A stretch of 23,564 nt of DNA, taken from the NCBI GenBank assembly GCA_910592205.1, contig CAJVPJ010000493.1, positions 1-23,564 of the forward strand, written 5' to 3'. Under the pieces are notes generated by a model. The model was not told the origin of the DNA, made no database searches, and worked only from the letters and a program-made list of their open reading frames with translations. The stretch is from Paraglomus occultum (Eukaryota; Glomeromycota; Glomeromycetes; Paraglomerales; Paraglomeraceae). Every line of letters starts with the position of its first letter. Within the stretch, counting starts at the first letter, position 1. Shown here in pieces: positions 16,585-23,211 of this stretch. The position numbers and the translations under genes were made by a program.

Positions 16585-17375
16585 GGTACCAGTAAATTAT
16601 CAAATACAGATAAATTCAAATAGTGGCATTATTTATTTTATTCAATCCATCGAACACCATACTCAGGGTACGTCGAGAGCATAATTAATTTGTTCGCGTA
16701 CTGAATACCAAATAATACACTTTACGTGGACCGAGATAATTAAGTTTTTACTTATCTATTGATTGGTATCTGTGTGAGCCGTTTCGAAAATGTTAGCACG
16801 TCGCTACCAAAACGTATTTGCCGGTAAAAATGTCGGTGTCGTTATAATCTGTCACTTTAGTGAAATAATGATATGTAGGTTACACGTATGTAATCATATA
16901 AAATGTATGTGTACCATATTACCGCCACTTCATCGAACTGCAGCCTTATAATAATGAAAGATTTAAATACTCTATTTCCCCTAAAAAAATTTTGGTAATA
17001 GTCATGGAATTCATATACATTCCATTGTATTCATCTTTATGTTCTTTCCACTGCAGATCTCCTTCCACATCGAGAAACGGAGAGCTCACAAATCATTCCA
17101 AGAACGAAGAGCATCCGAAATTTTCATTTTTTCTTAAGAAACTTAAGAAACTTTTTTAGTTAATAAAAATTTTAAACCGTAACTTTTATTCTACTTCTAA
17201 TATAAAAAAAGCCTTAGGGTTTTTTGAAAGTCGGGTATTTTATTTCGGGCTTTAGGTGTCCCGCACCCTAGTTATGAGATCATTAATGCTCATTGGTAAT
17301 TTGATTAATAATAACTAACAAATTAAAATAACAAACATAAAAGAGGAATTGAAAAAAGTTTCTGTCCACTCATAA
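16585..17375. other. Non-coding stretch before the IS607-like relic
   Basis: No gene recognised. The minus-strand open frame 17315-17521 lies opposite the recombinase relic and is its shadow. The left boundary of the IS607-like element is somewhere here but cannot be placed, because such elements lack inverted ends and target duplications. Confidence 0.45.
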
Positions 17376-17823
17376 GCAACAAAAAAACTTGGAATATCAT
17401 CACATACATTGCGTCGTTTGTCCAAACAGGGAAAGATCGAATTCAAGACATCAGCGTTAGGAACCAGATGATTATACGAGGTGTCAAAATTCTTTCCTGA
17501 TGATCCCGTTACCACCTCCAAAAAGAAATCTTACCTTACTGGAACGATTGTGCAAAGGTCTTGTCGGAGAAATTGTGGTTACTCACCGAGATCGATTGTG
17601 TAGGTTCGCGTACGACTTTCTCAAACACGTCTTCGCCCTCCATTCTACAAAACTCGTGGTTCTCTTCGACGATTCTACGACCGACGAACGTGAGCTGTCC
17701 GAGGATATCCTTGCCTCAACACCGTCTTCATCTGTAGAATGCGAATGCAAGGAAGAAGGGCTGCCGAACATAGAAGGGAAAGGAAGAATCACGACAGTGA
17801 GAAAGGGCAAAAAAGAAAAATGA
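17376..17823 (+). pseudogene. IS607 TnpA-type serine recombinase relic
   Basis: The frame from 17376 gives the MerR-like HTH (LGISSHTLRRLSKQGKIEFK). A TGA at 17469-17471 replaces the Trp or similar residue expected after GTR, and LYEVSKFF follows. Around 17525 the reading switches frame. The frame of 17500-17823 then gives LTLLERLCKGLVGEIVVTHR, DRLCRFAYDFLKHVF and TKLVVLFDD, the C-terminal half of the serine-recombinase domain with its DRLxRF block. The segment that should carry the catalytic Ser and the first helices is missing between the two halves. After ELSEDILA (about 17715) the family-like tail continues in another frame (TVFICRMRMQGRRAAEHRRE). At least one stop, one deletion and one frameshift make the enzyme dead. 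Intact TnpA cuts and joins DNA to move the element. Confidence 0.82.
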
Positions 17824-18765
17824 ACGAAAGCGTGATTCGGATGTTGAAGGTGAAATTGTACCCTAATCACGCGCAGAAACAATTGCTGAAACGATGGATG
17901 GGATTGACGAGATTGATCTATAATACAATTATTAGATATCTACAAGAAAGACGCGTTCACATCGATGGAACCAGAAGATTTATAAATTTTCCAAAAACAC
18001 AGTATCTACGAACCATATAGCCTACCTGAGCTTAAGAAACAAAGAAGTTTACCATCATCGATGAGAGCGTCGATGAAGCTATCAAGAGTTACAATGCCAA
18101 GGAGAAAGGATCAAGATTATCGAACAAGTCAAAGAAAGATCTGAAACACGATCATCATCTGTGCGCAAAATTTTTCAAAGAAACGATTCTACGTATCGTA
18201 TTTATTTAACAATTCTATGAAGACACCAAAAAATCATACAATAAACAAGAAAATACAAGAGATCTAAGACCTGGTCATTTCGAGACCAAGAGAAAGAATA
18301 ACAAGTGGCCATCAGAAAAGATCGTCAATGATTGCAAACTAACGTACTGTTAGAAGAACCAACGAATGGTTCTTATCATGGGCTCACAAACGATCCGGGA
18401 GTGAGAATCCCGCTTGTGATGTACTCACCTACCATGGGCGTTTGTGAGATTCGTAAGAACGATTCTCAGAGGCTGATAAGATTGGGATATCATAATCTCA
18501 AAGAAAGACAAACTGGACAAATCAACATCCAAGAGAAACAAGACGAAGGCTAAGAGAATCGATAAGGCCATAACTCGAGTACTTCGAAAGATCAAGAACC
18601 TGAGAAACGAACTTCATAAAATCATCTCGCAAAAAATGTTAACGTGGTAATATCACATGTTCAGACAGCCGATCGTTACACATATGAAAACCATACATAC
18701 TACCGCTTTGTTGAACTACGGCTTCGGAATGATAGCAGGATTAAATGCATCACTATTTTTTCGAA
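17820..18765 (+). pseudogene. TnpB/Fanzor-type nuclease relic
   Basis: The start at 17820 overlaps the stop of the upstream frame (ATGA). The first 66 codons hold the TnpB/Fanzor N-terminal block: LKVKLYPNHAQKQLLKRWMG and RLIYNTIIRYLQ. After stops at 18018-18036 the same frame resumes (about 18045-18206) with ESVDEAIKSYNAKEKG. Another frame contains the RuvC-I motif NDPGVR with its Asp codon at 18392-18394, followed by EIRKNDSQRLIRL. A further shift at about 18500 gives a basic helical stretch (RIDKAITRVLRKIKNLRNEL). This runs straight into KMLTW, a stop (18648-18650) and YHMFRQ. The RuvC-II Glu segment that normally separates these parts is deleted. A worn zinc-ribbon remnant (about 18690-18750, ending RIKC) has lost most Cys. 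It is non-functional. Confidence 0.8.
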
Positions 18766-18839
18766 AAGTACAACAAATTATCTTCAAATTTATACAAAAG
18801 TCGTTGTGGCTTGCATAGCAGATACGTACAATAGAGAGC

Positions 18840-19285
18840 TCTGTGAAAAAATAGTTTTTCATATGTTTTACTATGTGATCGACAAAAATTGTAGATTTTT
18901 GTCCTGTGAAGTGTATATTGTGTGAAACAACGGTATGCAACCTGCATCCATACGTAAGCTGAAAATCAAGTTTCGGTTTTTGATAAATCGGTTAACTACC
19001 CCAAATTTAGGTTGATATATCCGCAGTATAGTCACGTTTTTACTGATACCTTGAGGTTTATCCGTTGCATATTAGCTAATTATGTCAATGACTATATTCT
19101 AATTAATCCCGTTATAACGGGAACATAAGGCAAAATTCAAAAAAATTCAGTATAGAACGAGGTTCAATTAGTAAATTCGGTATAACGGGTCAATTTGCTA
19201 TAGACGTTTCTGTACTTACATCGGTATAGCGGGGTTTTACTTAGTCCTTCGGTATAACGGAGTTCGGTATAACGAGGTTCGACTG
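18840..19285 (-). mobile_element. Tigger/pogo-like element fragment with CGGTATAACGG repeats
   Basis: The right end reads inward from 19285 as CAGTCGAACCTCGTTATACC and is flanked by TA (19286-19287). The word CGGTATAACGG and variants occur at about 19105, 19148, 19178, 19221, 19250 and 19265. Near the left edge the minus strand reads STIFVDHIVKHMKN (about 18857-18895), matching VDQIVKHMKN in the element at 3355-4296. It therefore keeps one end and a scrap of transposase; the other end was not found. Confidence 0.65.
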
Positions 19286-21912: not shown

Positions 21913-22181
21913 GGAGCAATCAATAACATCATCATCAATCACAATCATTGGTCGAGATCATGTGCCGCACAGAGAAATTCATGTGATCGAATTTTTCACA
22001 GTGCGTAGATAGTAATAGTCCTTCGCTCAGTCCTTCGCTGACATCTTTCTTTCGTACCATCTAAGTACTGCGCCTCAAGTAAAGAAAGATATCACTCCAA
22101 ACTAAAATACTAACAAGCAAATATTGACTCAAGTGGTTTTGAAGCTAATTCTGATCATCACACGACTAGTTAACTATCAAA

Positions 22182-23211
22182 ATGCAAAGCTCTTCAAGTG
22201 CACCAATGGACACAGATACTAAAGTCCCAACCCATCCAAAAGGCAGAAGAATTTTCGAGATTTTTGGCTGGGAAAACGCTCAAAGTAACCTCATTAACAA
22301 CCGTCCCTTATCATCCAGAATCCCTCCAGCAGCAGACCCAACCTCTGCTTTCCTTGATGTCCAAAAAGTCCCTAACAAAATTGATGGACTCGCCATTGCT
22401 GAAGCCCTCCCAGAAGAAGCCATTGGGTCTAAATTCAGGGCTGACACTAACTTTATCCAAATCTTCTTTGACTCAGCTGTAGATGCAGACGAGTTCATTG
22501 AAAAGGGCTCCCTCCATGTCAAAGAACATGATATTCCCATTCTCCCTCCCAAAGGCAAACTCCCACCAACTGCCTATATTAATATTAGCCTAGAAAATGT
22601 CCCTATCAGAAAAAGGGAAACCATGGAGGAAATACTAACTGAAATCATAAATCATGGCAGAATTCTGCCATCCTGTAAAACTCACACTGATTACACTTAA
22701 AGGCACTAAATTGCTAACCACCAGATGGGAAATGCTTGCAAGAGCAATCCCAGAGAAGAACTTAGCCCAAACTCTACCTCCTGTTATTGAAGTTGATGGC
22801 CAAAAGGTCCTCTTATCCTGGTCTGGATCCCAACCTACCTGTCTTCACTGCCTCTCTGCTGGACATAATCGAAAGAACTGCCCCAAGCAAAGAAAGACCT
22901 CTGTAAACAAAAAGACATCCTATGCAACAGTTGTATCCCAAACAACCCCTGAGCTTGTAGCCAAACAAACTCAACCAACAGATGAGGGATCCCACCAGGG
23001 ACCTGAACAGGGACCCTCAAACACAAACAACAAACCCCTGACCAACAGACAGGTAACCCCTGAACCCATGGACTTTGTGTATAATGACAGTGATGAAGAC
23101 AGAAACAACAAGCTGCTCCAAATGGAAGGAGTCATTGAACAGAACATAGACCTCCTCCACAACAAAAGAAGCTTCGAAATGTCTCCAACACCCTCCACAC
23201 TCACATATTAA
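22182..23211 (+). pseudogene. LINE ORF1 (CCHC zinc-knuckle protein), one frameshift
   Basis: The frame from ATG 22182 runs to a TAA at 22698-22700. The adjacent frame carries on from about 22660 to a stop at 23209-23211, for a composite of roughly 340 aa. The first part has an RNA-binding-like fold region (FIQIFFDSAVDADEFIEKGS, then ISLENVPIRKRETMEEIL). The second has LTLITLKGTKLLTTRWEML and a zinc knuckle CLHCLSAGHNRKNC (C-x2-C-x4-H-x4-C, about 22840-22880). An acidic, Gln/Asn-rich tail follows. ORF1 proteins of this kind coat the element RNA. The +1 shift near 22660-22690 is most simply a mutation, because no slippery site or structure is obvious. Confidence 0.8.

Follow-up and report, generated by a model that had tools for sequence, protein, structure and literature searches.

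A probable dead IS607-type transposon copy with a Fanzor2 gene, and its many relatives, in a Glomeromycotina-like genome

Within the window (the whole stretch of 23,564 nucleotides that was analyzed), we found the relic of an IS607-type element on the forward strand, spanning positions 17352 to ~18690, on contig C493 of an assembly that totals 32.3 Mb in 1408 contigs. We consider it highly probable (about 0.9) that this relic is what remains of an IS607-type transposon with a Fanzor2 gene, a copy now truncated and dead, resident in a Glomeromycotina-like genome. The likeness of its DNA to that of two other contigs, C924 and C602, began at 17352, with C924 providing the nearest DNA match (69% over about 600 bases) and C602 matching over a short stretch. 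The parts that we recognized were as follows:

17352 to 18690, + strand: whole IS607-type relic, with an approximate right edge and a left end placed by DNA similarity only (similarity to C924 and C602; protein matches)
17376 to 17468, + strand: MerR-like HTH of TnpA, running on as LYEVSKFFPDD to about 17505 (Pfam MerR; same order in C924)
17504 to 17734, + strand: run of 77 codons without a stop, +1 to tnpA, including the PYWN...WFS peptide that relatives share
17533 to 17715, + strand: latter half of the TnpA serine-recombinase domain (Resolvase profile positions 55–119; matches to proteins P0076 and P0018)
17715 to 18017, + strand: C-terminal end of TnpA (LNTVFICRM...) and N terminus of TnpB in a single stop-free frame
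17832 to 17951, + strand: HTH_OrfB_IS605 of TnpB (Pfam)
18054 to 18350, + strand: middle part of TnpB/Fanzor2, with stops (matches to P0021, P0005 and P0013)
18392 to 18490, + strand: RuvC-I with the DPG motif, in a shifted frame (matches to P0021, P0018 and P0047)
18480 to 18647, + strand: stretch that follows RuvC-I (KDKL...ELHK), the copy being cut off ahead of RuvC-II (matches to P0021, P0018 and P0005 end at 18620)
18692 to 18920, no strand assigned: separate dispersed repeat that truncates the relic and lies outside the element (many genome matches start or lie there)

The TnpA of the window has a MerR-like HTH followed by a serine recombinase, of which only the second half is present, and TnpB lies directly downstream, its body reaching 18620. 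An earlier note, made from the sequence alone, had recognized this order as the IS607 arrangement, and both Pfam and the protein relatives bore it out. When seven unrepaired pieces of the relic were searched against Pfam, the piece at 17694–18017 matched HTH_OrfB_IS605 (PF12323) above the curated cut-off (E 7.8e-11), the piece at 17376–17468 matched MerR (E 2.9e-4) and HTH_17 (E 1.6e-3) below it, the piece at 17461–17820 matched Resolvase (PF00239) below it and over profile positions 55–119 only (E 3e-3), and the other four of the seven pieces returned no relevant family. The profile search of the translated blocks that had been proposed as a check therefore recovered all three families, HTH_OrfB_IS605 above the curated cut-off and MerR and Resolvase below it; we count the two matches that fell short of it against our explanation. 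A protein of Cetraspora pellucida (P0018) matched 17560–17715 at 67% over 52 amino acids, and one of Diversispora epigaea (P0021) matched 17898–18620 (E 4e-53) in an alignment that passed through stops, with its RuvC-I motif DPGVR matched at 18392 in a different frame (E 1.3e-12; both E-values refer to the small stretch searched). The TnpB/Fanzor identity claimed at the outset is supported.

The copy is decayed throughout, with stops in each frame piece, frameshifts, internal deletions and truncation by another repeat. The half of TnpA that would carry the catalytic serine is gone from the window, whereas the copies on C1247, C327 and C379 have YARVSS, and its absence is decay and not the mark of a different family. 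In the window copy, RuvC-II, the zinc ribbon and RuvC-III all went unmatched, and its right end is also gone, so that its own Fanzor fingerprint consists of the DPG half only, the rest coming from sister copies. Because of the stops, the frameshifts and the loss of both the catalytic-serine half and the C-terminal part of the nuclease, we regard the window copy as dead, in agreement with its earlier description as a relic, and nothing suggests that it does anything now. From about 18681–18692 onward, the window matches a repeat present on many other contigs; because this repeat starts at ~18692, the last ~75 bases of the interval first proposed, which ran to 18765, lie outside the element, which stops at ~18690. 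The repeat (18692–18920) often occurs as two inverted arms near each other, and its part at ~18845–18920 matches many contig ends. As a relic, this copy belongs to a known kind; more interesting are its relatives, with their candidate introns, double glutamate and probable overlapping frame.

Matches related to the relic were present on 51 contigs of the 32.3-Mb genome. This figure is the union of similarity searches that scored the top candidates alone, which makes it inexact and incomplete, and it includes some weak rows near E 1e-3. The zinc-ribbon family of TnpB had 24 genome matches, and pieces of two families had 35 and 45. The copies on these many contigs have diverged from one another. 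We distinguished family A (C517, C1363, C880 and others), where P stands in place of the canonical RuvC-II glutamate and the relocated residue is E, from subfamily B1, where the canonical residue is E in C327, C90, C642 and C71 and K in C1046. The earlier note had suggested that related intact copies might exist in the same genome. Related copies abound, but no intact one was found among those read, which are a part of all copies; among the matches listed, the longest open frame over a TnpB match was 230 amino acids, and that match contains stops.

Sister copies have precisely defined right ends. The family A copies that were read end in ...AATCCATCCG or near variants and then pass into unrelated sequence (C571 deviates), and in C517 this end lies ~35 bases past the TnpB stop. 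The 21-base family A end occurred at 20 places with ≤3 mismatches, versus 0 for the reversed control, and eight of the contigs bearing it were absent from the list of 51. The B1 end, ...TAGGCG, occurred at four places (control 0), the end in C327 being alike by eye, and the right ends of C52, C880, C1356 and C237 were similar. Where read, the ends of families A and B1 were each followed by different flanks. A left-end pattern was present at four places, the left end not being fixed exactly. The earlier note had anticipated a conserved 3′ non-coding region that could be the guide RNA; a conserved right end is indeed present in the sister families, the 3′ end of the window copy being lost, but a conserved RNA fold was unsupported, with z-scores of +1.9 to –2.4 in 12 copies (against shuffles that preserve base content only, not dinucleotides) and no covariation in nine sequences. 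We therefore set aside a conserved guide-RNA fold. By analogy with known families, the guide would be the flank that follows the right end.

The same analogy suggests how the living ancestors might have moved. TnpA would have excised and inserted the element as double-stranded DNA, with neither inverted repeats nor target duplications, while Fanzor2, loaded with RNA made from the right end together with the flank next to it, would have cut sites that had lost the element; both the recombination and the RNA-guided cutting are carried over here from what is known of those families.

Several sister copies contain insertions that begin with GT and end with AG. In the tnpA of B1, insertions of 63 (C327), 51 (C379) and 51 (C90) bases separate VVTRK from D(R/Q)LCRFG, in all three cases with GT first, AG last and stops in the TnpA frame, and in C327 with a CTAAC-like branch site. 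Within tnpB, insertions of 66 bases (C379) and 78 bases (C90) were found, as well as one of 87 bases in family A (C517), of which C1363 has a version without the donor. These insertions are best read as candidate spliceosomal introns gained in the fungal lineage. The alternative, that they are in-frame insertions or products of decay, seems unlikely to us, even though all seven measured lengths (63, 51, 51, 66, 78, 87 and 81; L036, L034, L079, L025 and L073) are multiples of three, a regularity favored in part by detection, as some insertions were noticed because the frame continues across them. The lost donor in C1363 and the different base that precedes the second insertion in C90 also fit that alternative. 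It sits poorly, however, with the common site of the insertion in three tnpA copies that are 77–80% identical there, with the splice-like borders, stops and branch site just described, and with the finding that leaving the insertion out restores an uninterrupted protein as in relatives, in the window copy and in C1046, the last two of which have no tnpA insertion. If they are introns, the elements lived as eukaryotic transposons and were not stray bacterial DNA. Among titles and opening abstracts, with few subscription papers covered, we found none describing introns in IS607 or Fanzor2 genes; in the accessible parts of the texts, the words intron and IS607 do not appear in Saito 2023 (PMC10432273), nor does intron in Bao and Jurka 2013 (PMC3627910) or Yoon 2023 (PMC10711439).

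The same insertions bear on whether the window simply contains contaminating or very recently transferred prokaryotic IS607 DNA, for example from a fungal endobacterium. Bacteria have many relatives in this branch: of 557 pattern stretches in the prokaryote collection, 505 code for one. Even so, we judge contamination very improbable, because besides the GT-AG insertions the relatives occupy many contigs and are mutually diverged, kelch and CNH domain genes lie on the contig of the relic, a kinesin gene adjoins the C327 copy, and the GC content of the relic (0.38–0.41) is just above that of its surroundings. The kelch protein had four protein matches, of which the three with names were to Cetraspora, Diversispora and Acaulospora (32–38% identity), Glomeromycotina only. 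These eukaryotic neighbors and the fungal relatives place the copy in a eukaryotic genome, as the name Fanzor2 requires, and together with the sister right ends and their unrelated flanks they sustain the earlier argument for true genomic residence. Domestication as a host gene, or retention as a regulated pseudogene, has a still smaller chance of being correct: we found no evidence for it in the window copy, and the stops in each frame piece, the internal deletions and the truncation all speak against it. We thus retain the dead, resident transposon as our reading. Elsewhere in the window, at 22170–23208, open frames with a CCHC zinc-knuckle-like stretch were noted by eye, perhaps the first ORF of a retroelement; Pfam gave no match for them.

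Relatives with an organism name were nearly all from arbuscular mycorrhizal fungi: in family B all 12, and in family A four of five, came from genera that we take to belong to Glomeromycotina, the remaining one being a Magnetococcus MAG; most rows as a whole were metagenome proteins. For the tree that had been proposed as a check, 30 of the 130 fetched loci lacked a readable RuvC stretch, and 176 rows were thinned at 80% identity to 92, which with three of our own gave 95. In this quick tree, which includes bacterial and IMG/VR rows, family A belonged to a group made up mostly of bacterial rows (SH-aLRT 96), to which B did not belong, and this suggests two independent entries; an AU test did not uphold that suggestion, as a single clade for the 37 rows of A and B was unrejected (p 0.365). 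A single transfer, favored by this test and disfavored by the free tree, is therefore a tentative possibility to which we give somewhat less than even odds. A viral source of the fungal copies was likewise unsupported by the tree and by scans of IMG/VR, a collection that is incomplete for giant viruses: with our own pieces as queries, family A found no relative there and B a single locus with a 19-residue match, and with the alignment of database relatives as query, 50 loci were found that scattered in the tree mostly among bacteria. The best solved-structure match of the family A stretch was the TnpB-like protein L79 (PDB 9b0l, E 9.8e-16). This protein is distant, and family B1 matched it only at E 0.001. 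It comes from a virus that we take to be of the Mimivirus type.

We then compared the RuvC-II glutamates. Database relatives comprised 44 of 92 candidates for the A piece and 55 of 65 for the B1 piece, and 77 of these 99 could be aligned. The canonical position held P in 31, K in 20, E in 14 and other residues in 12, and the relocated site held E in all 77, rows that had been selected by that motif; the relocated glutamate (Ealt) together with DPG was seen in sister copies and relatives. In subfamily B1, glutamate occupies the canonical and the relocated sites alike. The trait is not unique to fungi, as one of 64 bacterial rows and two of 36 IMG/VR rows likewise have E at both sites. According to the part of Yoon 2023 (PMC10711439) that was accessible, the canonical and relocated types are clearly separate, and eukaryotic canonical cases are mis-annotated bacteria. 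The double glutamate of B1 bears on the active-site rearrangement on the way to Fanzors.

The 77 codons of the +1 frame that stay open across tnpA in the window have counterparts elsewhere: in C517 the frame is open from tnpA into TnpB, and 7 of the 99 database proteins have a similar peptide near the N terminus (by a simple pattern, at the protein level only). The tnpB frame was +1 to tnpA at 29 of 29 thinned bacterial loci (same-frame loci having been excluded beforehand) and at 25 of 25 IMG/VR loci, drawn from 80 bacterial (L089–L168) and 50 IMG/VR (L169–L218) loci by requiring that tnpA precede tnpB on the same strand, with a long stop-free TnpA match and <70% TnpA identity; 1 of 74 bacterial loci (L150) had both genes in a single open frame. 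Relative to shuffles that preserve the protein and its codons, the +1 frame of bacterial tnpA contained 32 stops versus 121 expected, among loci that share ancestry and hence are not independent. In the comparison frames, none of which came from canonical IS607 elements, the other frame contained 294 versus 313 expected, the +1 frame of tnpB itself 324 versus 296, and 43 flanking open frames 681 versus 673. Across successive fifths of bacterial tnpA, the +1 stops numbered 30, 2, 0, 0 and 0 (expected 17.8, 12.1, 28.0, 33.2 and 28.9), such that the last three fifths had 0 stops versus 90 expected. Depletion was weaker in IMG/VR loci (43, 12, 15, 11 and 11 versus 27.2, 16.0, 39.8, 40.2 and 37.9 expected), and stops in their +2 frame were near expectation.

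On sequence evidence, this depletion points to an overlapping gene in bacterial pro-Fanzor IS607 elements. A broader model, to which we assign even chances, holds that in Fanzor2 and pro-Fanzor IS607 elements the nuclease frame would overlap most of the recombinase gene in the +1 frame and be selected to stay open, the nuclease either having an N-terminal part encoded over the recombinase domain or being made by +1 frameshifting from TnpA, with fungal traces such as the 77 codons of the window. In all three B1 copies, the +1 frame runs through the tnpA insertion without a stop (C90 has a stop just upstream), and because the insertion also contains TnpA-frame stops and is a multiple of three in length, its splicing could decide between recombinase and nuclease. 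Against a uniform layout, the window and C924 have the end of TnpA and the start of TnpB in a single stop-free frame, so their subfamily may have had a fused gene. If confirmed, the overlapping frame would alter the identity of the full-length protein and our picture of how one transcript yields two proteins. Among titles and opening abstracts, no description of overlapping frames in IS607 was found, and the words overlap, frameshift and reading frame are absent from the accessible text of Yoon 2023 (PMC10711439).

With respect to known systems, as far as the accessible portions of these papers go, Fanzor2 occurs broadly in fungi (Saito 2023, PMC10432273), and the fungal Fanzor2 table of Bao and Jurka 2013 (PMC3627910) holds four yeasts only. 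Like the eukaryotic IS607/Fanzor2 elements of those two reports, the elements described here combine a TnpA serine recombinase with TnpB/Fanzor2 in the IS607 arrangement; here, the copy is decayed and one of many, resides in a Glomeromycotina-like genome and has sister copies with candidate introns. They resemble the bacterial pro-Fanzor TnpBs (Yoon 2023, PMC10711439, in its accessible part) in DPG, the relocated RuvC-II glutamate and the adjoining IS607 TnpA, but family B1 keeps the canonical glutamate too and sits in a eukaryotic genome. IS607-type TnpA has also multiplied in the genome of Saccharomyces kluyveri (PMC2715888), where the portion of the report at hand describes six genes (the catalytic domain being mutated in two of them) and does not mention TnpB, whereas here there are many decayed copies together with TnpB. 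In a literature search on Fanzor and Glomeromycotina, the word Fanzor was absent among the best matches, which decides little. With these results, the hosts in which IS607-Fanzor2 elements multiplied to many copies come to include arbuscular mycorrhizal fungi.

Some minor features of the family A copies were also noted. Their 5′ part contains a repeat of ~115 bases (87% alike), seen in C517 (L086, 1283–1490). Fragments resembling Tc1/mariner transposases adjoin two of them by eye, at 2426–2978 of L023 (C632) and at 2055–2826 of L030 (C571). In C913 (L028), the family A 5′ part and the TnpB part lie head to head on opposite strands, as in a rearranged or nested copy.
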